This document shows, piece by piece, positions 3,145-31,332 of a stretch of DNA of 31,717 bases. Where the stretch lies: positions 1 to 31,717 of IMG/VR virus record IMGVR_UViG_3300037480_000032. One strand, 5' to 3'. Made by a program: the position numbers and the translations under genes. The first letter of the stretch is position 1; each line of letters begins with the position of its first letter. Source of the DNA: a virus. The notes under the pieces are model-generated. The model searched no databases, was not told where the DNA came from, and worked only from the letters and a program-made list of their open reading frames with translations.

Positions 3145-3221
3145 GGGGCTGGATTGGTTTCGACTTCTGTAAAACCTACGGGTAGCAGGAGGACTTGGGT
3201 TCGATTCCCAACAGCTCCACA
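3145..3221 (+). ncRNA. Miniature tmRNA-like RNA: tRNA-like domain without the mRNA-like domain
   Basis: GGGGCUG (3145-3151) pairs with CAGCUCC (3212-3218), including a G-U wobble at the third pair, followed by A3219 as discriminator. These are the alanine-tRNA-synthetase determinants, and the stem is the same as in E. coli tmRNA. The next 13 nt (3152-3164) contain GGUUUCGAC, the tmRNA D-loop-like signature. The T arm is perfect: UUGGG/CCCAA (3195-3199 with 3207-3211) around loop UUCGAUU, preceded by GGAC as in tmRNA. The P2 helix UUCUG/CAGGA (3165-3169 with 3186-3190) is closed by a short hairpin (ACC-UACG-GGU) instead of the tag ORF and pseudoknots. CCA is not encoded (C-A-U follows A3219). 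No D stem or anticodon arm can be folded, so it is not an ordinary tRNA. It lies in a 100-base gap between co-directional genes, with no promoter of its own visible. Confidence 0.82.
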
Positions 3222-3238
3222 TTTTAATAGGAGGATAT

Positions 3239-8171: not shown

Positions 8172-8350
8172 TTTTTTCTCCTGCGTATAAGTTTTTGTAC
8201 TGTATCCGATTCGTAGATACGAAGTCCCAGCCAAATAACAGTGAACAATGTCGCTACATCTGGTAGGATGCCAAAAAACCAAGCTCCTAAAGTCGTCACT
8301 GCCGCACCATCTCCTACATGATTTACCGATGCCGGTATATTATTTGTCAT
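8168..8350 (-). CDS. Putative holin
   Basis: 60 aa. A polar N-terminus (MTNNIPASVNHVGDGAAV) is followed by a hydrophobic stretch, about residues 19-46, containing GAWFFGILPDVATLFTVIWL. The C-terminus is highly basic (QKLIRRRKK). The size, one or two membrane spans and a cationic tail are typical of small phage holins that open the inner membrane at lysis. It overlaps the gene for a large virion protein upstream and the lipoprotein downstream. No endolysin is recognised beside it. Confidence 0.78.
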   Translation of the reverse strand: MTNNIPASVNHVGDGAAVTTLGAWFFGILPDVATLFTVIWLGLRIYESDTVQKLIRRRKK

Positions 8351-11300
8351 TTAGATTCCCTCCCTGCTGCGTCAAATAACACTGTCCATCCCTTAGCAAA
8401 CTTGGGTGGCTTATCAAGTCCCTTAAACATATTCACCATGTCTTGTCCCAAGTAATCCAATACTGCGTAAGGGGGAGTAGCAATCTTTACTGCGGCCCCA
8501 ATAGCCTTACCCTCTCCTATTTCCTTTAATGTATACTGACTCAAGCCATAGTTACCTAATAGCCTTGCCATTACCAAATCACTGAATTCAACATCCTCAC
8601 CTTTAATCCAGGACTTAACATTCTCAACACTAGCATTAGCTGTACCTAATATAGCTCCATAAGTAACTAAGTTCTTAACACCAGCCGCAGTGTTGCCGCG
8701 TCTAATCTGATTATAGAAATCCCTACGTAGTATATCAAGTTGCTTAATTGTAAATGTTTTAAGCATGTAGAAGATTCGCCCGTTAGGATGTTGCATATAT
8801 CTTACAGGCATTTCTTCTAAAGAGATGGGCTGTACTTTAGCTAGCTCATGCCATAAGACATGACGAACAGGAAAAGTAAGTTCCTTATTTTTAAGCCCAG
8901 CAACTAAACTATCCATTTCTTCTGGAGTAAAGGCAGCTTCATATTTAGCTTTTATTTTAGCCAGTCCCTTTGTAGATTTAGCTTGTGCTTGTAGCTTCCC
9001 TAAAGAAGCGTTTAGTATAGTTTCCTTACCAAGCCTATCAACAGCTCTAAACCCACTAAACTGAAGTCCTCTCTGTAACACTCTAGCAGTCCATCCAAGA
9101 TGTTCCATTTCATGTGTAAGGTTGGTAAGTCCCAATGTCTCCATATTTACAGGAGCTTGTCGAGATATTACTCTAGGAATGTTAGCAGCAGTACGAGCAA
9201 TAGATGTTAGATAAGCTGCTGCCCCTAAGTCACCAAGCTGCGTACCAGCAGCTAATGGATTAGCAAGAGTACCAGTGTATAGAAGATTCTTAGTTCCAGC
9301 TATAAGCTTATTTGGGCTTTTAACACCCTCAAGGAATCTAGCTGTAAAGATTTTTTCTAGCTCTGGAATATCATCTACGATAATATTACCTGCTCTACGT
9401 TCTTTCTCTAGTAAACTAGTAATAGCACGATTGACAATCTTTTCATCTGTCAATACTTCTTGTGCATTAATATTATCTAATGCTTTAGCACCACCAAAGA
9501 AATTGCGTGATTCAATCTTAGCATTCATATTATGAATATAATTAGTAAGAGATTCTAAACTATCTGAATAATCAATAATACTTTCTTCTTGTGATACAGT
9601 ATCTCTCTGTCTCTTCTTAGTGTGCTCAGTGGAAGACCTAATAGACGGCTTACCTTGGGAAGCTAATAGTTTCTTACTAAGAACATCTCTTACTTCAGCA
9701 TCAGTTAGATGATCATTAATAACCCTGTCATTTATTTTAGAGGCTGAAATCCTCTCTGTATCTCTCAGTCCATATTTAATATTGATAGCATCTGCTAAGG
9801 CAGTGCGGTACCTATTCTTATTAATACCCCTACGTTGCATGTATTTCTGATAGTCTGCCACTTGTCGTGGAAAGAAATCAGGAACCCTACCAATCTTTAT
9901 TCCAGCTTCTATTCCTCTACCGTAAGTACGATCTAACATAGCACGTGTGCGAGAAATTGCAGATAAAAGAGCATCCCGTTTCTTTGGTGTAAGTTCACTT
10001 GCCAGCTCTCGCATTGCTTTAATGTCTGAATTGTTCCAAAATAAATTAAATCTCCTACGCTGATTACTAGACAGCGGTTTTACTGCTCTAGATAATTGGT
10101 CCTTTACTCTCAAGTCCTTTCCTATATTCTCAGAGAGCTGCTGTCCATGTCTCTGAAATCTAAATCCCAATACAGGACTCATCTTATGTACTGTAGTGGA
10201 AGCTACACCAATAAATTCCTTTATCCTATCCTTAACATTTCCTGTACCTGTACGTATGCGTCCCCTTAGAGAATTCATATCCTGAGCTATCTTTGTAGTT
10301 TTAGCTTGCACAGCTTCTTTAGAAAAATCCAAGTCGTCTCCCAAACTGTACTTCTTATTAAATTCTTCTTTCACTCTGGGTGACATATTGGTTTCTTGAG
10401 CAGCTCTACGGATAGCTGTATCCTTATTAGCACCCTTTATCATGTGTTCAAGTGCTTTATCATTCACCTCATCAAAGGCTTTCTGTGCCTGTTTGGGCAG
10501 TCTTATTTTATCAAAAGCCCCCTTAGTGGCTATAGTTCCTTTAATACCCCCTATGAATAATGGAGCTGTTACAGCACCTATACTGGCCACACCCAAAGCC
10601 TCCTCAGTATCAACCTCTCCCTTCTCAGCTAATTGCTGAGCAGTATTTTGAGTACCAGCTATTACGCCACCTACTGTGGCAGCACCACCAATACCTCCAG
10701 CAACACCTGCTATCTTCTCAGCAGTGGTTCCAAGTTTAGCCCCTACTGTGGCTGTAGCACCAGCAGCCTTAGTCCACCCAAGTGGAGTAAGAAGAAGTTC
10801 TGGATCAGCTATAACGGCGTTTATGAAATGAGCAGTAGTACCACCGGGATCAGACAAAGCTGCTTCCTTCATGGCAGATAAAGAGAACCCCTCTTCAAAC
10901 TCTCCCTTGTCATAACTATCCCCCAATGATTTCCACATCTCTCCGTAAGCATCTTGTAGCTTAAGATATGCGGCATCTTCCTGTGGTGTTAATTCTCTTT
11001 CAAGAGCTTGCTTTTCCCATAAGTCTAATTCTTTATTTAATGTAGTGATGGCAGGAATAGACATAAGAAATTGATCCCTGCTAACTTTAGCCTTCTCATC
11101 AAATTCACTCTGAGGAGTGAACAAATATCTCACCCCGCTAGCTACAATACTATCTTCCTTCATAGCTTTAATAGGATTCTTAATTGTATCTAAAAATCCT
11201 TTAGTGGTTTTAGCTTCCGCTACTGTTGGCTGCTGTTGCTGTGCTTCTAGCGTAGCAGCAGCTCTAGGAAACATCTGACGTTCTCTCTCACCTAATTGTA

Positions 11301-11466
11301 AAGTAGGGGGCTCTCCCCCGCCAGTAGCAAAGATACGATTGACAGCCTGTTTCTCAGACTCAGGACTTATTCCTGCTTCCCTACGAAGAAAGCTTTTAAT
11401 CTGACTGTCAGTAGCCTCATCAGGGAAGTCAAACTCTTGCCCTTCAAACTGTATAGTTTGTGTCAC
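8347..11466 (-). CDS. Large virion protein, probable DNA-ejection/internal protein
   Basis: 1039 aa, the largest product in the window. It starts MTQTIQFEGQEFDFPDEATD, resembling a short N-terminal motif (T-x-F-x-G-x-x-F-x-F-P-D-x-x-T/D) often seen at the start of large phage internal proteins. A Gly/Ala-rich stretch at roughly 205-320 could insert into membrane; the rest is mainly helical and charged. Together with the two genes before it, it makes a set of three late proteins matching in size and order the ejection proteins of short-tailed phages (T7 gp14/15/16 or P22 gp7/20/16). No lytic transglycosylase or peptidase motif was recognised by eye. Confidence 0.65.
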   Translation of the reverse strand: MTQTIQFEGQEFDFPDEATDSQIKSFLRREAGISPESEKQAVNRIFATGGGEPPTLQLGERERQMFPRAAATLEAQQQQPTVAEAKTTKGFLDTIKNPIKAMKEDSIVASGVRYLFTPQSEFDEKAKVSRDQFLMSIPAITTLNKELDLWEKQALERELTPQEDAAYLKLQDAYGEMWKSLGDSYDKGEFEEGFSLSAMKEAALSDPGGTTAHFINAVIADPELLLTPLGWTKAAGATATVGAKLGTTAEKIAGVAGGIGGAATVGGVIAGTQNTAQQLAEKGEVDTEEALGVASIGAVTAPLFIGGIKGTIATKGAFDKIRLPKQAQKAFDEVNDKALEHMIKGANKDTAIRRAAQETNMSPRVKEEFNKKYSLGDDLDFSKEAVQAKTTKIAQDMNSLRGRIRTGTGNVKDRIKEFIGVASTTVHKMSPVLGFRFQRHGQQLSENIGKDLRVKDQLSRAVKPLSSNQRRRFNLFWNNSDIKAMRELASELTPKKRDALLSAISRTRAMLDRTYGRGIEAGIKIGRVPDFFPRQVADYQKYMQRRGINKNRYRTALADAINIKYGLRDTERISASKINDRVINDHLTDAEVRDVLSKKLLASQGKPSIRSSTEHTKKRQRDTVSQEESIIDYSDSLESLTNYIHNMNAKIESRNFFGGAKALDNINAQEVLTDEKIVNRAITSLLEKERRAGNIIVDDIPELEKIFTARFLEGVKSPNKLIAGTKNLLYTGTLANPLAAGTQLGDLGAAAYLTSIARTAANIPRVISRQAPVNMETLGLTNLTHEMEHLGWTARVLQRGLQFSGFRAVDRLGKETILNASLGKLQAQAKSTKGLAKIKAKYEAAFTPEEMDSLVAGLKNKELTFPVRHVLWHELAKVQPISLEEMPVRYMQHPNGRIFYMLKTFTIKQLDILRRDFYNQIRRGNTAAGVKNLVTYGAILGTANASVENVKSWIKGEDVEFSDLVMARLLGNYGLSQYTLKEIGEGKAIGAAVKIATPPYAVLDYLGQDMVNMFKGLDKPPKFAKGWTVLFDAAGRESK

Positions 11467-17851: not shown

Positions 17852-18886
17852 TTACGCAGGTACAACGAATGCAATAGCAGCGTTGTCACGTAACTCACCT
17901 ATACCATAAATGGTATCAGCAGTGAACAAATCACCCAACCACTCTTGCTTGTACTGAGACTGAGAACGCACAGTCATCTGTTCAGCCAATACAAAAGCAT
18001 CCTTATGTAGCAGCAATCCCTGGCGATAAGGCTCATCTGTAGGAGTGGAAGTGTTCCAATCCTCAGTATTACCAAGTCTATCTACAAAAGACGCACCAGT
18101 AGGAGCTGCGGAAGTAAAGGTAACACTCTCACCACCAGTTACACTATTAACATGCAACCAAGGACAGTTAGTAGATACAAACACTTCTATACCGTACATG
18201 TCACCTACACGACCATTACGGATAGTATTGCCCATACCTAGTTCACCAGTGAATGCCTGCTCTGTAAAGCGAGCAATACCAGTGAGGGTCTTCTTCTCTA
18301 CAGGTGGGAGTACAAATACACGATTCATCATCGGAACATCTGCATCGTCTATAGTCTGAATCATGGTACGAATACCAGCATCAGTTAGAGTTGTACCATT
18401 ACCTGTGTTAGTGGATGCAGTTGGGTCCCACACAGTAGCGCCATCACCACCAATTACGGCAGTAGAATAACGTGTAGATCCCTGAACTGTAGCACCAAGC
18501 AACGCAAGATCCTGATCTACCTGAGTAGCTAACGCGAAGCCAGCATCGTCAGTATAGAAAGCACGCATTGAATTTAGACCCTGAACAGCAGTGATGTCTT
18601 CAATAAGTTTTGAATATTCATAATGCTTATTAATGAGAATATCAATATCTGGTTCAGTATTGGCATTTAATGTCACCTGAGTTTCAGCAGCCTTAGCGTT
18701 TGCGCTACCACGAGTAGGCGCAGGAATATGAATGGTATCACCTTTCTTCCCTACATGCCTAAGTTTTGTTACTAGATTAGCCAATACCAGATTAGTTTTA
18801 TACGCAGCGATAACATCATCAGACCAGATTTCTGGAATGAAGACGTCCTGCGTGGTATTGGTACTATGATTTGTACCTAAAGCCAT
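17852..18886 (-). CDS. Major capsid protein
   Basis: 344 aa. The sequence MALGTNHSTNTTQDVFIPEIWSDDVIAAY..., a KKGDTIHIPAPTRG strand region and HYEYSKLIEDI follow the pattern of HK97-fold coat proteins from short-tailed and related phages (P22-coat-like group). It lies directly downstream of the scaffold gene and is followed at once by a strong terminator, as expected for the most abundant virion protein. The ATG has AGGAGAGCTAAA upstream. Assembly needs the scaffold; no protease gene is apparent. Confidence 0.88.
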   Translation of the reverse strand: MALGTNHSTNTTQDVFIPEIWSDDVIAAYKTNLVLANLVTKLRHVGKKGDTIHIPAPTRGSANAKAAETQVTLNANTEPDIDILINKHYEYSKLIEDITAVQGLNSMRAFYTDDAGFALATQVDQDLALLGATVQGSTRYSTAVIGGDGATVWDPTASTNTGNGTTLTDAGIRTMIQTIDDADVPMMNRVFVLPPVEKKTLTGIARFTEQAFTGELGMGNTIRNGRVGDMYGIEVFVSTNCPWLHVNSVTGGESVTFTSAAPTGASFVDRLGNTEDWNTSTPTDEPYRQGLLLHKDAFVLAEQMTVRSQSQYKQEWLGDLFTADTIYGIGELRDNAAIAFVVPA

Positions 18887-19985: not shown

Positions 19986-20247
19986 CTTCTTCCTCAATTT
20001 GGATTACTTCTTCTTTTAATATATTATCGTGATTATTATGAACTCCATCAGAATAATTTACGATATATTGTAGAGTAGTAATTTGCCCCCGTCTAAATTG
20101 CCATTGGTCGTTTGTAGTGCAATCATTTACAGCTCCTTCTTCGAGCTGATTCAGAATGCCTTGTACATCTTTTTGAAATGTTTGCCACCCATCTTGGGTG
20201 AACACCTCGAATAAATCATCAAACTGTTGCTGTACTTCTGGTTGCAT
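19963..20247 (-). CDS. 94-aa acidic protein downstream of portal
   Basis: It starts MQPEVQQQFDDLFEVFTQ and ends with a very acidic stretch (EEVIQIEEEDEQ). It overlaps the portal 3' end by 29 bases and the zinc-ribbon gene by 23 bases, so all three are tightly packed. A single small helical domain is likely (WQTFQKDVQGILNQLEEG). Short proteins of this kind commonly sit between portal and scaffold in podoviruses. No function is known from the sequence; a head-assembly accessory is plausible. Confidence 0.7.
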   Translation of the reverse strand: MQPEVQQQFDDLFEVFTQDGWQTFQKDVQGILNQLEEGAVNDCTTNDQWQFRRGQITTLQYIVNYSDGVHNNHDNILKEEVIQIEEEDEQVVAF

Positions 20248-22192
20248 TTGCTTCTCCTGTTGATTGCGCTTTCAAAGCGTCAACTGTGGTTTTATAAAAA
20301 TCAAGCTGTGTGCCTAATTCTTCTGCCTCTGCTTTAGCAATATCTAGCATGGCTGATGCCATCTTCTTAGCTTCATCTGAGTCGGCCTTTTGCATCTCAA
20401 TATCTACGCGGACCATCTCTGCTTGTGCTCTAATAAACTCTACTCGTATACGAGCTTGCTCATTTTGAGCTTTCATTTGCAAATCCTGTGCCTTCAATTG
20501 TTCTTCAATTGTAGGTTGTGGTGGTTGAGGATTAAGTGCTTGCTGTAGCATGCCCCCAACTATTTGCAACATCTCCTCCTTGTTAGTCATTGAACTATTT
20601 TCGTAAATAGAACGTAGCAATAACCAATAAGCAGGGGAATTAGGTGGAACAGTAGCTAACAAACCTGTTAGTTGTTGCTGTTCAAATTCTCTAGCCATAA
20701 TACCAAGAGTAGAATGTACTGTAAACTTAACATCTGTAGCCTTATAGCGTTCTGGTTCAAATTGAATGTATCTCCATGCAGCTTTGTGAATAAGTGGTGT
20801 AGTAAATGTACGTTCAATGTTAGCCATTGTACGCTTAGATCGCTTGATAGCCCCACTCAACATCATACTCATACCAGATGCAGTGTTGTTTCTAGGACTA
20901 ACACCTGTAGGAGTAGCACTATCCATAGCACCTGTACTCATTTGCACCATTCGTTCAAGTTCACCAGCCTGAGTAAATGTATTATTATTTACCTGTCCGA
21001 AGTTAAATGGTTTTAATATCTGACTTGGATCACCATTAGTAAAGATGGCTTTGCCTGGTCGTACAGAAAATTGTCCACCTCTAGGAATACGTGTAGCATC
21101 TATACCCATCATTGGTCGAATAGAAAGAGCCATTGCGTCTATTCTAGCTCTTACTTCAGCATCTAATGCTTTCTGAGCATTATATCCCTTTTCTGTAACA
21201 CCACGTCCCCAAAAACTTTCTGGAACTGTATCATGTTGATAGGCAATAAATGCTCTATCTTTCATTAATAGAGGATTTTCGTTAGCTCTTAAAAGAACAG
21301 TATCATTTGCAATAGTTACGATAGCTTCAACTAAATCGTCTTCATCTATTGTAGCTGGTAGTCCTTCAAAATCTACAAGCTCCTCGTCTTCTGCTACTTC
21401 TGGTGATAATAGAGAAGCAGGAACTAGCCCATGATATTCAATAAGTTTAGTCTTTTGAGAAATATCTGTATCTCTTAACTCTTCTGGGTCAATATCCAAA
21501 TCTAAATTATCTGGAAATCCCCCTAAATCTATATCATCATATATGCCTTGAAACTGCTTACTAACTACTGTGTGCTTTGGCACTATCATAATATGAGCGC
21601 AGCCCAATGCCTCGTCTATTGTACGTGCTGTAGGATCAATAGCAAATCTTTTGGGATGTACTGGTAGGAGTTTTACAGCGAACTTCTCTGTCTCTCCACT
21701 CTCGATAGTTTGACGAACACCGTCCTCAATAACTACCTTGCCAATACCTGTGCCATAAATGGCTCCATTAAGAAACACTTCTGATATAGCACTAGGAACT
21801 CCATTATCATCCAAGTCCTCGAGGAGTAGCTTACGGAATACTTCCATATCTTCTCTTTGTTGATCTTGAACATCGTCACTTACATCAAACCATCTACCCT
21901 TACCAAAAGTAGCTTCTTCTAATTCAGCTACAGTGGCTTCAATAGCTTGCTGTATTGCAGGAGTAATAATTCTACTACGTTCACTATCTGTAGTTTTATC
22001 AGCAGCGGCCCAAATACCTCTCCACAATCTGTAGTATTCATCCCATTTAGTTTCAAATTTACTATCCCTATAATCTGCCCAGGGACCAACTTTACCCATA
22101 ATCCACGATGCTAGTTTTTCTTCCCTAGTATTCATGTCTTCTAAAGCAACATCTTCGTCTATATCTACAACGATTGTATTTTGATTAGCCAT
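20219..22192 (-). CDS. Portal protein
   Basis: 657 aa. The N-terminal region shows YYRLWRGIW and SRIITPAIQQAIEATVAELEEATFG, then helical and beta regions with FLNGAIYGTGIGKV, a portal-like pattern of large short-tailed phages. The C-terminal section from about residue 565 is a long charged coiled coil (QLKAQDLQMKAQNEQARIRVE). Twelve copies would form the DNA gate at one capsid vertex and the base for terminase and tail. It lies directly after TerL, one base apart. The length exceeds T7 portal (536) and is close to P22-like portals (725). Confidence 0.88.
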   Translation of the reverse strand: MANQNTIVVDIDEDVALEDMNTREEKLASWIMGKVGPWADYRDSKFETKWDEYYRLWRGIWAAADKTTDSERSRIITPAIQQAIEATVAELEEATFGKGRWFDVSDDVQDQQREDMEVFRKLLLEDLDDNGVPSAISEVFLNGAIYGTGIGKVVIEDGVRQTIESGETEKFAVKLLPVHPKRFAIDPTARTIDEALGCAHIMIVPKHTVVSKQFQGIYDDIDLGGFPDNLDLDIDPEELRDTDISQKTKLIEYHGLVPASLLSPEVAEDEELVDFEGLPATIDEDDLVEAIVTIANDTVLLRANENPLLMKDRAFIAYQHDTVPESFWGRGVTEKGYNAQKALDAEVRARIDAMALSIRPMMGIDATRIPRGGQFSVRPGKAIFTNGDPSQILKPFNFGQVNNNTFTQAGELERMVQMSTGAMDSATPTGVSPRNNTASGMSMMLSGAIKRSKRTMANIERTFTTPLIHKAAWRYIQFEPERYKATDVKFTVHSTLGIMAREFEQQQLTGLLATVPPNSPAYWLLLRSIYENSSMTNKEEMLQIVGGMLQQALNPQPPQPTIEEQLKAQDLQMKAQNEQARIRVEFIRAQAEMVRVDIEMQKADSDEAKKMASAMLDIAKAEAEELGTQLDFYKTTVDALKAQSTGEANATRSTATV

Positions 22193-23464
22193 TTAATATC
22201 CTACTAAGGAATCTAGAGGTTCCCAACTATCATATCCAATTTCATTTTCATATATGGAACTAGAGATTTGATCTATATACGCAAGAGCATCTAACAAATC
22301 ATCATGGGCCATTGGGTTTGGAAAGTCTAATAGTTGTTCTACAAATTTTTTGTTCCACCCAGCAGTCTTTAATGTAATTCTACCATGCTGGAAACGACCC
22401 TGTAAGCTCCACAGAATGCGTTCTGTCTTCTTCTTACCCCCATGAGTAAGGGGTTCTATGCGTGGATATATGTTAAGCCTACGCATTTGATCTTCGAGAT
22501 ATGGCATAATAGCGTTCTTTAAGCTACCACCCTCTATACCCACTGCTGCCGGTTTATATTTCTGTGCTGCCATAATTATTTGTAATGAAGCTTCTCGTAC
22601 ACCCCATCTACCACTAATAATATCTTTAACAAACCATCCTTCAGGAGCTACTTCTACTACAGCTATAGCCATTTCATCAAGACGTTTAAGATTAGACTTA
22701 ATCATTCCGTCTCCGTCGGAATATCCAGCAGGATCTACAGCTATATATGTAATACCCTCAAATGGAGTCTTGTCTGCGTATTGTACATCTTTCTCTTTAA
22801 ATGCTCCACCACCACTACTGCTAAAGGATGCTTCAAATTCCTGTCTAAATGCATCAACACTCATTCTTTCTCTAGCGGCTTCTATAACTTTAGGATCAAG
22901 AGTGGGATTATCTGTTGAATTGAACGTAAATGCTTCCCATTCTTCTCTATCCTGTGCCTCAAGCCATAAATCATAGAAATGATTCTTACCTTCTGGAGTA
23001 CCAATAAACAAGGCGTCCCCATTAACATCTGCCAATGTTGGTTGTATGATAACATCCCATACTTCTGGCTTCATAAATGCATACTCGTCCATTACTATAT
23101 AGCTGTTACCGCTACCTCGGAGAGTATCGGGTCTATCACTTCCTTTTAATTGAATCTTTCTACCATTTATTAATGTAATTGTGGCAGTATTCTCATAAGT
23201 TTTAGTTATAACGTCCTTGCCCATGTCTTTAAGCATATCCCACATAATATCTTTGGCTTGCTGAAATGTTGGAGCAATATACCAAACTTCTTTAGATTTT
23301 AAATTATATCCGCTTTCATTCTTGTCCTTCAGTCCCTCTACAAGAAGCAATACAGCAGCAAGATAGGTTTTACCTCCTCGTCTTCCAGCAGCACATACCT
23401 TAAACTTAGCAAGAGATGTAAGTATCTCCATTTGTTTTGTATGTAATTTAAAATCTAAGTTCAT
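22193..23464 (-). CDS. Terminase large subunit (TerL)
   Basis: 423 aa. The ATPase domain carries Walker A GRRGGKT (27-33) and Walker B YIVMDE (122-127); a coupling-type motif is likely near FIGTPEGK (153-160). The nuclease domain has the three acidic clusters expected of an RNase H fold: AVDPAG (first Asp), GIEGG (Glu) and AHDDLLDALAY (Asp pair). It cuts concatemeric DNA and pumps it through the portal. The start overlaps the stop of the 48-aa gene (TAATG). Confidence 0.96.
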   Translation of the reverse strand: MNLDFKLHTKQMEILTSLAKFKVCAAGRRGGKTYLAAVLLLVEGLKDKNESGYNLKSKEVWYIAPTFQQAKDIMWDMLKDMGKDVITKTYENTATITLINGRKIQLKGSDRPDTLRGSGNSYIVMDEYAFMKPEVWDVIIQPTLADVNGDALFIGTPEGKNHFYDLWLEAQDREEWEAFTFNSTDNPTLDPKVIEAARERMSVDAFRQEFEASFSSSGGGAFKEKDVQYADKTPFEGITYIAVDPAGYSDGDGMIKSNLKRLDEMAIAVVEVAPEGWFVKDIISGRWGVREASLQIIMAAQKYKPAAVGIEGGSLKNAIMPYLEDQMRRLNIYPRIEPLTHGGKKKTERILWSLQGRFQHGRITLKTAGWNKKFVEQLLDFPNPMAHDDLLDALAYIDQISSSIYENEIGYDSWEPLDSLVGY

Positions 23465-24551: not shown

Positions 24552-26147
24552 TTAACCTATAAGTTGATTTGATCTGGATGCCCATGCTGATTGAAATGCA
24601 GCACCACCACTAGGAACTAAAGTACCTACATCACCAGTAGCTTCCTCCCCACTAAGAGCTACACTTACAGATGAGACTAATGAGCCTTCCGATCCCGTAC
24701 CCTCATTACCTGAAAGGGTTACACTGATCGCTGGAGCTAATGCTCCAATATTACCTGTTCCTTCCTCGCCTGTTAAAGGCGCCTCTTCTCCTACTGTAGG
24801 AGTGAGAATACCAATTGCACCAACACCCTCTTCACCAGAGAGTGGAACTGATATTGCTCCAGTGAGAGTTCCTTCCGAGCCTGTACCTTGTTCTCCAGTA
24901 AGAGCTATAAAAACTCCTACGCTTGGAACCAGTGTTCCAATAGCGCCTGTAGCTTCTTCTCCTGTCAGTGAAACATTTATGGAAGGAGCTAAGTCTCCTT
25001 CTGTTCCAGTTCCTTGAACACCAGATAGGTTTATACTAAGTGCTGAACTTAATGTTCCTTCATTACCAGTGCCCTCTTCGCCTGTAAGGGGAACACTAAT
25101 AGAGAAAGCTAAACTTCCCTCTGCTCCCGTACCTTCCTCACCTGTCAATGGTAATGACATTGAAGGAGCAAGAGAACCTTCTGCTCCTGTTCCCTGATTG
25201 CCAGTGATGACTATATTAATACCAGCACTAGGGACTAATGTCCCAACATTACCAATGCCTTGATTACCTGTTAGTGCAACGCTTACTGAGGGGGCCAGGT
25301 TACCTTCTGCACCTGTACCAGCATTTCCTGTTAAAGCAGCTTGCTCCACCGCTGCTACGGCAGTCGGCACACCTTGACTTGACGATGGTAGTAAATACAG
25401 ATTAGGATTACGCCTGATCCGCTCTATTTCTTCATCTTCTAATGGACGATTGAAAAATATTGCTCTATAGATATTCCCAACATAATCATTTGACGTTTGA
25501 CCTATTCCTATCCTCCATTCCTGAGCATAATCCGCATATTCATTGAAGGCATTGTCCATGTCAGATGATTTCTGACCGTCTAAAAATAGATTTTTTACTG
25601 GTGATCCACTTCTGTCGTCCACTTTCCCTGCAAGAAAATAGGGTTTGTCGTAGGTGATTCCTATTGGAAAGGTATAAGTAGAAACCCCCCAATTACCGTT
25701 GATGTCAGCTGTTGCAAATGCAAATTCATCAATATTATTTTTCTTCTTACTTATGCGTATACTACGATTACCAGAAACCTCTGATTCTCTACCGATTAAG
25801 GATCTATCCGTATTGGTCGCAAGATTTCGCAGGTCGGCTATAAATATCCATGTAAAACCATTATTATTATTTGCAACTTCAAAGTCAGGATGATCAGGAG
25901 TTCCTGCCCAATCATCAGACAGAGTGCAATTGAGACATTTCCCCCCTCGGCTTACTTGCCATGTAGCATCGCCGTTTAATGTAAACTCTTTACCACCGAC
26001 AATATCGGGATTGCCATCCAATAATGTATCAAACTTTAAGCCACGGGTTATTGATAAGGACCAGTCAACCTCAACTAACTCGTTGGGTTTTCGACCTGGA
26101 TCTAATAGATTAGGCTCCCACAATAACTTATGGAGCAGATCAGACAT
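24552..26147 (-). CDS. LamG-like adhesin/fibre with 12 tandem C-terminal repeats
   Basis: 531 aa. Residues about 25-240 are a concanavalin/LamG-like beta sandwich (GNNGF-type strand FTWIFIADL, then FLAGKVDDRSG, KNLFLDGQ, WRIGIGQTSNDYVGNIYRAIFFNRPLEDEEI), a fold that binds carbohydrate. Residues 271-516 are 12 repeats of about 20 residues around LTGEEGTGAEGSLAPSISV, with Gly at fixed places and alternating small/hydrophobic residues, probably stacked beta strands. The last 15 residues (QSAWASRSNQLIG) resemble the closing segment of repeat fibres. It is likely a surface-exposed fibre or head decoration that adsorbs to polysaccharide. Confidence 0.78.
   Translation of the reverse strand: MSDLLHKLLWEPNLLDPGRKPNELVEVDWSLSITRGLKFDTLLDGNPDIVGGKEFTLNGDATWQVSRGGKCLNCTLSDDWAGTPDHPDFEVANNNNGFTWIFIADLRNLATNTDRSLIGRESEVSGNRSIRISKKKNNIDEFAFATADINGNWGVSTYTFPIGITYDKPYFLAGKVDDRSGSPVKNLFLDGQKSSDMDNAFNEYADYAQEWRIGIGQTSNDYVGNIYRAIFFNRPLEDEEIERIRRNPNLYLLPSSSQGVPTAVAAVEQAALTGNAGTGAEGNLAPSVSVALTGNQGIGNVGTLVPSAGINIVITGNQGTGAEGSLAPSMSLPLTGEEGTGAEGSLAFSISVPLTGEEGTGNEGTLSSALSINLSGVQGTGTEGDLAPSINVSLTGEEATGAIGTLVPSVGVFIALTGEQGTGSEGTLTGAISVPLSGEEGVGAIGILTPTVGEEAPLTGEEGTGNIGALAPAISVTLSGNEGTGSEGSLVSSVSVALSGEEATGDVGTLVPSGGAAFQSAWASRSNQLIG
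24600..25337 (-). repeat. Twelve degenerate 60-66 bp tandem repeats in the fibre gene
   Basis: These encode residues 271-516 of the fibre. Units keep L-T/S-G-x-x-G/A-T-G-x-x-G-x-L while codons vary, so the repeat is old but kept at protein level. Two unit lengths occur (20 and 22 residues). Confidence 0.88.
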
Positions 26148-27201: not shown

Positions 27202-27671
27202 TATGCTATCCTAATAAGACCAGTGGTCGCATCATTAGTGGGCATAGTGAGAGTAAAGTCTGCTGCTGTAATACTCTGAGAACTAAAAGTATGTACAGAA
27301 CACTCTTCGTTTCCTGTTGCTGAAGCATTATATAACACAGCAGCATCAAAAGCACCACTAGATGTTAGATTTGTCCAGGTTTCGTTAGCAGAAGGGGTCC
27401 AGAAGGCCGTAGTTCCACTTGTAGTGGGGGCTGTAGCATTAGTTACAGCCTGCCCTCCCTGGGTATAGTTGCCAGTAGCAGCCAATTCCCCTGTCGTATT
27501 ATAGACAGTATCGGCTACGCCTCTGCTTCCTGATACCAAGAATAAAGCCAGATTAAAAACATCCTTAGTAGTTACAGTACGAGTGCCGTTAGCTGCCTGA
27601 GTGCCAAAGGCATGAGATCCATTTAAAATCTCCTGCTTGAAAGACGTACACATTGCTTGAACATTTGCCAT
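27201..27671 (-). CDS. 156-aa probable structural protein
   Basis: It begins MANVQAMCTSFKQEILNGSH and then AFGTQAANGTRTVTTKDVFN. The M-C-T-S-F-K-x-E-I/L-L-x-G-x-H-x-F start recurs in small proteins of many tailed phages, usually beside virion genes. The body is Thr/Ala-rich and beta-like (NYTQGGQAVTNATAPTTSGT, then FDAAVLYNAS, TLTMPTNDATTGLIRIA). TAGGAG precedes the ATG. It may be a small fibre or head-surface protein. Confidence 0.65.
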   Translation of the reverse strand: MANVQAMCTSFKQEILNGSHAFGTQAANGTRTVTTKDVFNLALFLVSGSRGVADTVYNTTGELAATGNYTQGGQAVTNATAPTTSGTTAFWTPSANETWTNLTSSGAFDAAVLYNASATGNEECSVHTFSSQSITAADFTLTMPTNDATTGLIRIA

Positions 27672-27683
27672 TTTTTAAATCTC

Positions 27684-27887
27684 CTATTTCAACATTGCTG
27701 CTATGCCTTCGGCAAGCACATTTCTTTTAAGTGTTACGTGAGCACCACGTTTTACTATTACGCCATCAAGGCGCCATTCTTCCCACGTAGTATGTTCATT
27801 ATCGTTATCTAAAACACCCTCCGTTTTGTCCAGAAGACTTTCTTCCATCATCTGTCTCTTTCCATCAATCTCTACTAATATTTCCAC
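27684..27887 (-). CDS. 67-aa protein, second gene of late operon, GTG start in a hairpin loop
   Basis: The preferred start is GTG at 27887-27885, with AGAGGAAG about nine bases upstream. The frame is open further to another GTG at 27923, but that has no Shine-Dalgarno sequence. The product begins (V)EILVEIDGKRQMMEESLLDK and ends VIVKRGAHVTLKRNVLAEGIAAMLK, a mixed alpha/beta small protein without a recognised motif. The chosen start codon lies in the loop of a 7-bp hairpin (27877-27894), suggesting structure-dependent initiation. Confidence 0.58.
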   Translation of the reverse strand: MEILVEIDGKRQMMEESLLDKTEGVLDNDNEHTTWEEWRLDGVIVKRGAHVTLKRNVLAEGIAAMLK

Positions 27888-27907
27888 AAATATTTTCTTC
27901 CTCTTCG

Positions 27908-28102
27908 TTATATTGTGGCACACTTGCCACGGATGATGATTAATGTTTCGTCTTCAAGACTATGTGTTATATTCGTAGGAGTACGAAGTTTGTCACACAT
28001 ACTAAAAACTATTAGCTGTTCCTCACCGGGAACAGAATATACTGTACATGCTGTATCCCCAAGGATACATATATTCAAATAATATATTATTAATAATTCC
28101 AT
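27908..28102 (-). CDS. 64-aa protein, first gene of late operon
   Basis: ATG 28102 with GGGAGGAAAT immediately upstream; the longer frame to a TTG at 28114 starts inside the Shine-Dalgarno sequence and was rejected. Product: MELLIIYYLNICILGDTACT, then VYSVPGEEQLIVFSMCDKL and a C-terminal LEDETLIIIRGKCATI; small, beta-like, with four cysteines. No motif gives a function. Its RBS is base-paired in a hairpin (28103-28122), and three further short hairpins fall inside the coding sequence. Confidence 0.55.
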   Translation of the reverse strand: MELLIIYYLNICILGDTACTVYSVPGEEQLIVFSMCDKLRTPTNITHSLEDETLIIIRGKCATI

Positions 28103-28361
28103 ATTTCCTCCCAAGAGGAAATTTATATATATATTAATAAGACTCTCATTAAGAGAGTCTTATATATTAATAAAATCCACCAAAGGATTTTATTTATTAA
28201 TATATAAGCAGCCCTTAAGGAGCTGCAATATTATATATAAATAATATTGTAAATATACTTAGACCATTGAACTTCCAAAAAGTTCAATAAATAATTAAAA
28301 TAAATTAAAATAATGTCTCTTGGGGAGACATAAATATTCCTGTTAATGCTCCTTTGGAGCA
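28016..28361. repeat. Array of short perfect hairpins at the late-operon head
   Basis: Nine stem-loops follow one another about every 21-52 bases, separated by AT-only linkers: 28016-28035 (7 bp), 28052-28069 (7 bp, loop CCAA), 28103-28122 (8 bp, CCAA), 28137-28163 (11 bp, ATTAA), 28169-28194 (10 bp, ACCAAA), 28208-28226 (7 bp with a bulge, TTAA), 28226-28249 (9 bp), 28266-28288 (9 bp, CCAAA) and 28313-28331 (7 bp). A tenth, 28347-28361, is 6 bp. Stem sequences differ from one another, so these are not copies of one repeat. They are not terminators: no T run follows. Confidence 0.85.
28103..28122 (-). promoter_or_regulatory. Shine-Dalgarno-sequestering hairpin of the first late gene
   Basis: On the minus strand ATTTCCTC-TTGG-GAGGAAAT immediately precedes ATG 28102. 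All of GAGGA, the ribosome-binding site, is on the 3' arm of the 8-bp stem, so ribosome access would need melting or a protein. Confidence 0.8.
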
Positions 28362-28647
28362 AATAAAATTATCACTCATTCTTCCCTCTAATTTTATTAT
28401 AATAATCAATTACTTAGCCGTTGTTCATTTGGCCAATTCCCCTCCAGGGTCGAGGTGGCCGTTTCCTGTTAATTTTCCAATCCTGCTCTCATGTGGCGAT
28501 GAGGGAGAATACAATATCTCCGGAAATTCACAGGGGGGAGGGGGGTAGTCGCATAAAATGCTCCAGGTAACAGGTAATAAACAGGAGTAATAGGGGCATA
28601 AAGAGGATTGATTGTCACCATATACACCACATTAGCCAATTAAAAGC
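28362..28647. other. Intergenic stretch with GC-rich structured element
   Basis: No convincing gene. It holds a GC-rich hairpin (GGCCA/TGGCC with inner CCTC/GAGG, about 28430-28459), a 7-bp hairpin CTCTCAT/ATGAGGG (28486-28505), a purine tract and short direct repeats of CAGG-T/A-x-TAATA near 28565-28595. A minus-strand TATAAT lies at 28396-28401 without a clear -35. A frame at 28354-28548 has no ribosome-binding site and odd composition, and was not accepted. The late promoter is probably here, but I cannot place it. Confidence 0.5.
28533..28545 (+). other. G6-A-G6 tract
   Basis: Two runs of six G separated by one A, within otherwise AT-rich DNA, with smaller G runs nearby. It could form a G-quadruplex on the plus strand, or mark an origin, packaging or recombination site. 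Confidence 0.8.
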
Positions 28648-28676
28648 TTGACATGCCTACACATCATTGCTATGCT
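28648..28676 (+). promoter_or_regulatory. Sigma70 promoter of the early region
   Basis: TTGACA (28648-28653), 17-base spacer, TATGCT (28671-28676). Transcription would start near 28683, just before the first palindrome. Confidence 0.85.
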
Positions 28677-28693
28677 CTAGGACAGTGAACACA

Positions 28694-28709
28694 TTGCGTG
28701 TACACGCAA
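28694..28709. promoter_or_regulatory. Palindrome TTGCGTGTACACGCAA, site 1
   Basis: A perfect 16-bp palindrome about 11 bases after the predicted start point and 18 bases before ATG 28727. It could be an operator for a dimeric regulator or, as RNA, a leader hairpin. Confidence 0.85.
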
Positions 28710-28726
28710 CACAATAGGGGGCTAAC

Positions 28727-28828
28727 ATGAATCATGTAATAATAGCATTTATACTAGGATTTGCAGCGGGAGGCGTGTTCGCCTCTATATGTTGGTGGAT
28801 AGCTGCATATAGAGCCATGCAGCCTTAG
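28727..28828 (+). CDS. 33-aa single-span membrane peptide
   Basis: ATG 28727 follows TAGGGGG. The product is MNHVIIAFILGFAAGGVFAS then ICWWIAAYRAMQP: one transmembrane helix with small-residue GxxxG-like packing (GFAAGG) and a Trp pair at the interface. It is the first gene after the sigma70 promoter and palindrome site 1, so it should be among the earliest expressed. Small one-helix peptides in this position often modulate host membrane processes or proteases; no target is visible. Confidence 0.65.
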   Translation: MNHVIIAFILGFAAGGVFASICWWIAAYRAMQP

Positions 28829-28855
28829 TGACATTCAAAGCCATGGGGGAATAAC

Positions 28856-29005
28856 ATGTTAAAACAAAGAGCCATAGATCACATGCTCAAGAGCCAGAGA
28901 GGGCAAGCAATATTACAAAGATATGCTACAAGATTGGCACGAGAGGCAAGCAAAGAAATGGACATAATATTACAAAAAATGGAGCAACTACTGAATAAAG
29001 CTTGA
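28856..29005 (+). CDS. 49-aa basic helical protein
   Basis: ATG 28856 with GGGGGA upstream (ATGGGGGAATAAC). Product starts MLKQRAIDHMLKSQRGQAIL and is an amphipathic, Gln/Arg/Lys-rich helix throughout. It is in the early transcript after the 33-aa membrane peptide. The TGA overlaps a promoter -35 element, so the next transcript starts here. Function unknown. Confidence 0.65.
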   Translation: MLKQRAIDHMLKSQRGQAILQRYATRLAREASKEMDIILQKMEQLLNKA

Positions 29006-29031
29006 CTCATCATGTAAGGTCATGGTAACAT
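29002..29031 (+). promoter_or_regulatory. Putative sigma70 promoter
   Basis: TTGACT (29002-29007), 18-base spacer, TAACAT (29026-29031). Like the first promoter, the -35 is preceded by AGC (AGCTTGAC). It would drive the 237-aa gene with a leader of about 120 bases. Confidence 0.55.
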
Positions 29032-29040
29032 GGCCTTATG

Positions 29041-29059
29041 TAATGGGAAAGACCCATTA
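29041..29059 (+). promoter_or_regulatory. Leader hairpin
   Basis: TAATGGG-AAAGA-CCCATTA, 7 bp, just after the predicted transcription start. No T run follows, so it is more likely an RNA-stabilising or regulatory 5' hairpin than a terminator. Confidence 0.6.
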
Positions 29060-29100
29060 TAAGCAACATCGCTCATTAACAATTTGGATGAATACAAAAC

Positions 29101-29143
29101 CGCACTCATAAAGTGCGTGTACACGCAATAATGCGTGTATAAT
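29101..29143. promoter_or_regulatory. Palindrome site 2 with nested half-sites and a TATAAT
   Basis: The core TGCGTGTACACGCA is at 29114-29127. It is flanked by CGCACT (29101-29106), which pairs with AGTGCG (29112-29117), and by a further TGCGTGT (29132-29138), which pairs with ACACGCA (29121-29127) over loop ATAA. Three mutually exclusive hairpins are possible in RNA. TATAAT at 29138-29143 could be a -10 element whose -35 region would be the palindrome. Confidence 0.78.
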
Positions 29144-29159
29144 TTACGAGGATATTACA

Positions 29160-29873
29160 ATGAGTAAATCACAAGCAAAGGGTAGTGAAAAGAAGGTCGA
29201 TAACACATTGGCTAATATTGCCAGTCATTTAAGCAAGTATAATTCCCTACATGATGTAGTGGATGATAAAATCATGTTTAATTGGACTGACATCTTCGAT
29301 AGTGCTATGCCTTATTTAGCCAAAGAAGATGCAATTGAACAGATTAAGGATGAACTGGACGCTGGTGTTAAGTCTGTTAGTCAGATGTTATTGGCCGTGG
29401 CTAGAAAGGCTGGAAGCTTGACGGAGTTTAACATTGATGTTAATTATATGCGGCAAGTGTATAAATCAAGCCACAAGGATGCTACACGACTACCTAAAGT
29501 GTTAAGCGACGCCCTAGGCGTCATTAGAGCAGGCTGGAAGCTGAATATAGACAATCCCAAGGAAAATGCTCTATGCAATCCACTTAAGGCCACGAGTGTA
29601 GAAACCCTACGCAAGACAAACAAGGCCGCAAAGGATGCACAGGCATTAAAGAAGGAATCACATCCGATACAGGAGATACTTGGGAGTATTGCTAACATCT
29701 ACAAAGTATTTGAACGTAAAGGCATGAAACAAGAGCTAGAACGCCTCAGAGAGGCTTTAGACACAATAGAGCATGACTATCATGCCATATTGGATGAAGT
29801 GGTAGGTAAGGACAAGCCAGAGCCACCAGAAGCAGGTGTACATAACATCAAAATGGATGCAGGCAAAGCCTGA
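29160..29873 (+). CDS. 237-aa early protein, unknown
   Basis: ATG 29160 with ACGAGGATATTAC upstream. The soluble protein is almost wholly helical: N-terminus MSKSQAKGSEKKVDNTLANI, then WTDIFDSAMPYLAKEDAIEQ, VSQMLLAVARKAGSLTEFNI and a C-terminal charged helix EILGSIANIYKVFERKGMKQ. The tail is Pro/Glu-rich. It is the largest early gene here, controlled by the most elaborate palindrome, and followed by its own terminator, so it forms a single-gene transcription unit. No known domain was recognised; a host take-over or regulatory role is conceivable. Confidence 0.78.
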   Translation: MSKSQAKGSEKKVDNTLANIASHLSKYNSLHDVVDDKIMFNWTDIFDSAMPYLAKEDAIEQIKDELDAGVKSVSQMLLAVARKAGSLTEFNIDVNYMRQVYKSSHKDATRLPKVLSDALGVIRAGWKLNIDNPKENALCNPLKATSVETLRKTNKAAKDAQALKKESHPIQEILGSIANIYKVFERKGMKQELERLREALDTIEHDYHAILDEVVGKDKPEPPEAGVHNIKMDAGKA

Positions 29874-30349: not shown

Positions 30350-30361
30350 GTTTTCTCTCTC

Positions 30362-30425: not shown

Positions 30426-30473
30426 ATTGCGTAGTCATTGCGTGTACACGCAATGGACACATTACACGCAATG
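30426..30473. promoter_or_regulatory. Palindrome site 3 with extra half-sites
   Basis: A perfect 20-bp palindrome CATTGCGTGTACACGCAATG (30436-30455) is flanked by a left half-site ATTGCGTA (30426-30433) and a right half-site ACACGCAATG (30464-30473). Right half-site spacing is 18 bases centre to centre, suggesting side-by-side binding of dimers. Confidence 0.83.
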
Positions 30474-31314: not shown

Positions 31315-31332
31315 GTTGCGTGTACACGCAAC
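31315..31332. promoter_or_regulatory. Palindrome site 4
   Basis: A perfect 18-bp palindrome GTTGCGTGTACACGCAAC, ending 13 bases before ATG 31346. The 16-bp core is identical to sites 1 and 3. Confidence 0.85.

Follow-up and report, generated by a model that had tools for sequence, protein, structure and literature searches.

Perfect hairpins of unrelated sequence cluster where the late and early operons of a phage genome record diverge

The window analyzed here is a virus record of 31,717 bases (IMGVR_UViG_3300037480_000032) that has no end repeats and is possibly a fragment. Early genes, including those for a DNA polymerase, an exonuclease and a ribonucleotide reductase, lie on the + strand, and late genes, including terminase (22193-23464), portal (20219-22192) and capsid (17852-18886), lie on the - strand. 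The portal and phrog_644-type proteins link it distantly to the HMO-2011-like marine podoviruses; the phage group founded by HMO-2011 ranks among the most abundant in the sea. The hairpin array occupies the control region from which the late and early operons diverge, at about 28 kb, where GC skew switches together with gene direction, so that the two are fully confounded. The late side of this region carries a conserved small gene (27684-27887, - strand), which has a GTG start with an SD and is 78-83% identical in L088 and L089, followed by an orphan open reading frame (ORF) of 64 amino acids (27908-28102, - strand; ATG at 28102), for which a homologue search returned no match. The SD of this ORF, GGGAGG, sits within the 3' arm of one of the hairpins (28103-28122). 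On the early side, a sigma-70-type promoter (TTGACA-17-TATGCT with TG) is predicted at 28648-28676 on the + strand. The genes at 27684, 27201 and 24552 form a shared module present in many other phage contigs; the 531-amino acid product of 24552-26147 (- strand) has many GTGxxGTL-type repeats. Farther left, a 1039-amino acid protein (8347-11466, - strand) without PHROG or significant Pfam match is probably a virion protein.

The core array spans 28016-28361. We counted as hairpins the perfect stems of at least 6 bp with at least two G/C pairs, and eight were found, at 28016-28035, 28052-28069, 28103-28122, 28137-28163, 28169-28194, 28266-28288, 28313-28331 and 28347-28361. To these can be added an AT-only stem (28226-28249) and a Watson-Crick stem of 5 bp (28208-28226), to which the late strand adds two more pairs, an inner C-G and a U.G. 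A sequence-only reading of this DNA had claimed at least ten perfect stems of 6-11 bp in this segment; nine have 6 bp or more, and ten is reached only by counting the 5-bp stem. Its description of small CCAA-type loops fits four of the eight hairpins (CCAA, CCAA, CCAAA and ACCAAA) and not the other four, and the AT-only linkers that it described extend from about 28123 to 28265 but not across the remainder of the array. No two stems have a common sequence and there are no direct repeats among them, and a family of mobile hairpin elements was rejected on that ground. The stems do share a polarity: the 5' arm beside the loop is all-pyrimidine in 8 of 10 array stems, vs. 11.6% of hairpins elsewhere (p=1e-6), and the terminators of the same phage have the opposite arm polarity.

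The array is real and non-random. Positions 28000-28370 hold eight perfect hairpins, vs. a mean of 0.23 and a maximum of 3 in 500 shuffles. Folding energy compared with shuffled sequence, a comparison on which the sequence-only reading had staked its claim, bore the array out on both strands, with z close to -8 (-8.9 on the + strand and -7.9 on the - strand at 28081-28200) against a genome mean of -0.55 (s.d. 1.43). Note that sites at 30361 and 29041 equal the array in folding extremity, so that it is not the only strongly folded site. No Rfam 15 covariance model matched the array at its gathering score, and a literature search of partial coverage found no description of such hairpin arrays. 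A CsrA sponge was rejected, since GGA is paired in the stems and not exposed in the loops.

The proposed leftward continuation of the array into the two small genes was upheld for one of them. The orphan ORF contains two more perfect 6-bp hairpins within 27915-27987, GTGGCA/TGCCAC at 27915-27930 and TTCGTA/TACGAA at 27972-27987, and it carries four hairpins in all, vs. 0.66 in synonymous-codon shuffles (0/300 reach four). The gene at 27684-27887 has no stem of at least 6 bp (0.22 expected from the same kind of shuffles), and the stems claimed there at 27736 and 27761 are short enough (4-5 bp) to arise easily by chance. To the right, the excess of hairpins persists in weaker form to about 30.4 kb, partly as operator-like palindromes and terminators; early-side hairpins and operator-like palindromes at 28694-29139 (+ strand) constitute this weaker part of the hairpin-rich zone. 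One palindrome, TTGCGTGTACACGCAA, occurs four times in the window (28694-28709, 29113-29128, 30438-30453 and 31316-31331, one copy having one mismatch), vs. 0.08 expected, and its location just upstream of early genes makes it probably the operator of a putative early regulator.

Two landmarks position the array. A conserved non-coding element (28477-28545) contains a G6AG6 run, GGGGGGAGGGGGG, at 28533-28545, and the array lies between this element and the first late gene. At least 12 relatives, among them L004, L009, L011, L023, L024, L173-L175 and L177, have the element ahead of their first late gene, in either orientation and in some cases as a C-run, and similar spacing and motifs then follow. 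A G-run of this kind lies about 18 nt before the end of the annotated direct terminal repeat of the isolate ICBM2, and P12053L has the same G-run at the late head; on these grounds the element likely marks the genome end or packaging site. It resembles mitochondrial CSB II in sequence only. The second landmark lies inside the array. The motif TTGAACTTTTTG-N11-GTCTAA (28259-28287, - strand), the left half of which forms part of hairpin 28266-28288, has exact copies at the late heads of L173, L174, L175, L177 and L189, and a scan of viral contigs placed it 27-67 nt ahead of genes in the same orientation in L182, L185, L186 and L187. Its position makes it a putative phage promoter, one that is common to distantly related phages. 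Matches in the early regions of L173 and L174 had suggested reading the motif in the opposite direction, which was dropped given the four loci upstream of co-oriented genes; a match with three mismatches in L168 was also dropped because it lies inside a gene. Because of its place inside the array, the promoter overlaps one hairpin and has two others upstream.

A search with the neighbouring early protein returned no relative in which the array itself can be aligned, and good alignment of the L023 and L024 leaders is confined to the G-run element. Nevertheless, these two contigs have weaker clusters of four and five hairpins, respectively, with other sequences, in the stretch that separates the G-run from the first late gene. 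L177 and L189 have clusters of unrelated sequence at the same place, with hairpins running into the first late gene. The densest cluster seen is at the start of the L189 contig, where positions 1-165 contain five perfect hairpins of 9-11 bp, most with AC-loop-GT apices. In HMO-2011 the hairpins are on the early side: the segments at 53-55.28 and 0-1 kb carry 9-12 perfect hairpins per kb vs. about 1 expected, with densities elsewhere near background. The enrichment is roughly tenfold over about 3 kb and includes genes, since gp74 holds 8 hairpins vs. 0.78 in synonymous-codon shuffles, the gene at 53665-53928 holds 5 vs. 0.72, and the gene at 433-1182 holds 5 vs. 0.89. Most of these hairpins are unique, and a few are repeated operator-like palindromes (AGTCCG). 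About 45 closer relatives have no array, nor do the isolates ICBM2, CRP-345, VP41s3, HTVC115P, CRP-1 and ICP2; consequently, this life cycle does not require an array. Flagged clusters in GC-rich relatives looked chance-like. Overall, a hairpin zone beside the genome end is patchily distributed among these phages, and what its members have in common is shape and position, not sequence. The earlier argument that different stems of similar shape imply selection is thereby strengthened, because clusters of unrelated sequence recur at the same genome position elsewhere.

Pairing and loop composition bear on whether DNA or RNA folds. The comparison sets were assembled stepwise after hits had been seen, so some of the p-values given in this text are optimistic. 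RNA helices accept G.U pairs. Among stems of at least 7 bp in the pooled arrays, 30 were perfect, 4 had one internal G.U pair and 5 had one A.C mismatch, which is chance level, while control terminator hairpins from the same phages comprised 20 perfect stems, 24 with G.U and 6 with A.C (arrays vs. terminators for G.U, Fisher p=1e-4). The window alone gives 7:1 for perfect vs. G.U stems, and the G.U evidence rests on the pooled arrays. Loops of 3-4 nt are in excess in the pooled set (58/88 vs. 39%, p=8e-7), as are GNA/TNC triloops (14/26 vs. 9.7%, p=5e-8), mainly from HMO-2011 and L189, and tetraloops of the GNRA and UNCG classes, which are stable in RNA, show no enrichment. In DNA, a GNA loop with a C-G closing pair has unusual stability. 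The promoter hairpin of phage N4, to which this loop class is related, depends on a G and an A in the loop and on a G:C closing pair (PMC4496689). None of the three triloops in the window is GNA, which means that the argument from DNA-stable loops applies to the window by analogy only. Folding energy did not discriminate between strands, as antisense strands fold about as unusually as sense strands.

Given the avoidance of G.U pairs, the short GNA loops, the lack of GNRA/UNCG excess and the structure of both strands, we favor DNA hairpins, and suggest that the selected object would be a hairpin formed in single-stranded or negatively supercoiled DNA and not an RNA hairpin. Most arrays are nevertheless located on transcribed sequence near operon heads, which keeps RNA in consideration. 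Late transcripts initiated at the embedded promoter (near 28250), or at a promoter upstream, could carry a row of hairpins that would shield the 5' end from RNases, make the polymerase pause or regulate how the first ORF is translated. The array is indeed upstream of the first late genes with a conserved promoter pointing in the late direction, leaders fold strongly (z of -7.2 for the window, and of -4.4 and -7.3 for L023 and L024, respectively), the SD of the 64-amino acid ORF is in a hairpin arm, and the hairpins of L177 and L189 continue into the first late gene. However, in the pooled arrays stems containing G.U are not in excess and GNRA/UNCG loops are not enriched, the promoter has two hairpins upstream and one inside, antisense structure equals or exceeds sense structure, and the hairpins of HMO-2011 are on the early side. 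We regard a leader role as rather unlikely. Among the roles first suggested for the array, those assigned to RNA (a late leader, a scaffold for a protein, protection of mRNA) consequently fit less well, and the best fit is the suggested region melted as hairpins.

Two other explanations were considered. A region that is often single-stranded could be "corrected" to perfect inverted repeats by template switching, so that functionless hairpins accumulate, as would be expected from perfect Watson-Crick stems of unrelated sequence that appear in coding and non-coding DNA alike and are patchy among relatives. A tenfold excess inside coding genes with the frame kept open stands against it, as do the apical pyrimidine bias of the window and the GNA triloop bias elsewhere, although mutation, too, could be biased by the stability of hairpins; we judge a purely mutational origin unlikely. 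Still less probable, in our estimation, is that the array reduces to the protein-binding palindromes and weak terminators of a promoter region. Repeated operator-like palindromes do occur on the early side and AGTCCG hairpins in HMO-2011, and positions 27500-29200 contain 7 terminator-like sites vs. 1.1 expected. However, the array stems have no common sequence, most lack a T tract, and terminators in the phage have opposite arm polarity. The core array has just two weak late-strand candidates for intrinsic terminators (28226-28208 and 28331-28313).

The reading we tentatively prefer over an RNA leader, while holding it somewhat short of probable, is that the array consists of DNA hairpins in a genome-end or origin-like control zone that separates the divergent late operon from the early one. 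The AT-rich DNA next to the genome end would open when the late promoter fires, replication starts or the ends are processed, and each strand would then fold into a series of small hairpins. These could hold the DNA single-stranded and clear of SSB or nuclease or, alternatively, mark the zone for a phage protein that reads shape and not sequence. As a first guess, the hairpins may be used in replication initiation or genome-end processing. A bolder version, which we consider doubtful, is a DNA signal of structure only, in which arbitrary perfect hairpins beside the genome end, including hairpins kept inside genes via synonymous choice, would drive replication start or end processing by shape alone. 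Cis-signals are normally found by conserved sequence, and here presence, position and shape recur without common sequence, among uncultured phages and also in the cultivated phage HMO-2011, where the effect reaches synonymous positions in genes. A structure-only signal, if true, would constitute a class of cis-element invisible to sequence comparison that may have escaped notice. If functional, the hairpins would reveal an overlooked genome-end or origin element and selection on DNA shape, testable in cultivated phage.

Known systems resemble the array in part. Replication origins usually have one to three conserved hairpins or iterons. Like origins and single-strand initiation sites, the array is AT-rich, hairpin-bearing and located in a divergent control region at a GC-skew switch; unlike them, it has about ten unrelated stems, and an origin role is putative here. 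The put sites of HK022 place structured RNA close to a promoter where an operon begins; they consist of two conserved stem-loops and differ, as do other antitermination leaders, from about ten unrelated perfect stems without G.U. The Zobellviridae isolates ICBM2 and P12053L have a G-run at the terminal repeat and divergent late and early operons but lack the hairpin cluster. The promoters of the N4 virion RNA polymerase are also short DNA hairpins (5-7 bp) with small loops near early/late control regions, extruded by supercoiling (PMC4496689). However, N4 has three, with a common sequence and a fixed loop, and the window has nearly a dozen unrelated stems with varying loops; N4-type promoters were rejected because no stem or loop is conserved in all copies. 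They also need a virion RNA polymerase, and none was recognized in the window, a possible fragment that includes the 1039-amino acid protein without family match. Mitochondrial repetitive hairpin elements are likewise numerous and scattered in AT-rich intergenic DNA, but they are spreading sequence families (PMC2800124), and the array stems share no sequence.

A separate structural feature was found between phage genes far from the array. A 78-nt segment (3145-3222, + strand) matches the whole tmRNA model at 65.6 bits, with the mRNA-like part absent; a short P2 helix and the tRNA-like acceptor/T-arm domain are all that it retains. The segment may be a tRNA-like domain of tmRNA that stands alone, or else a remnant.
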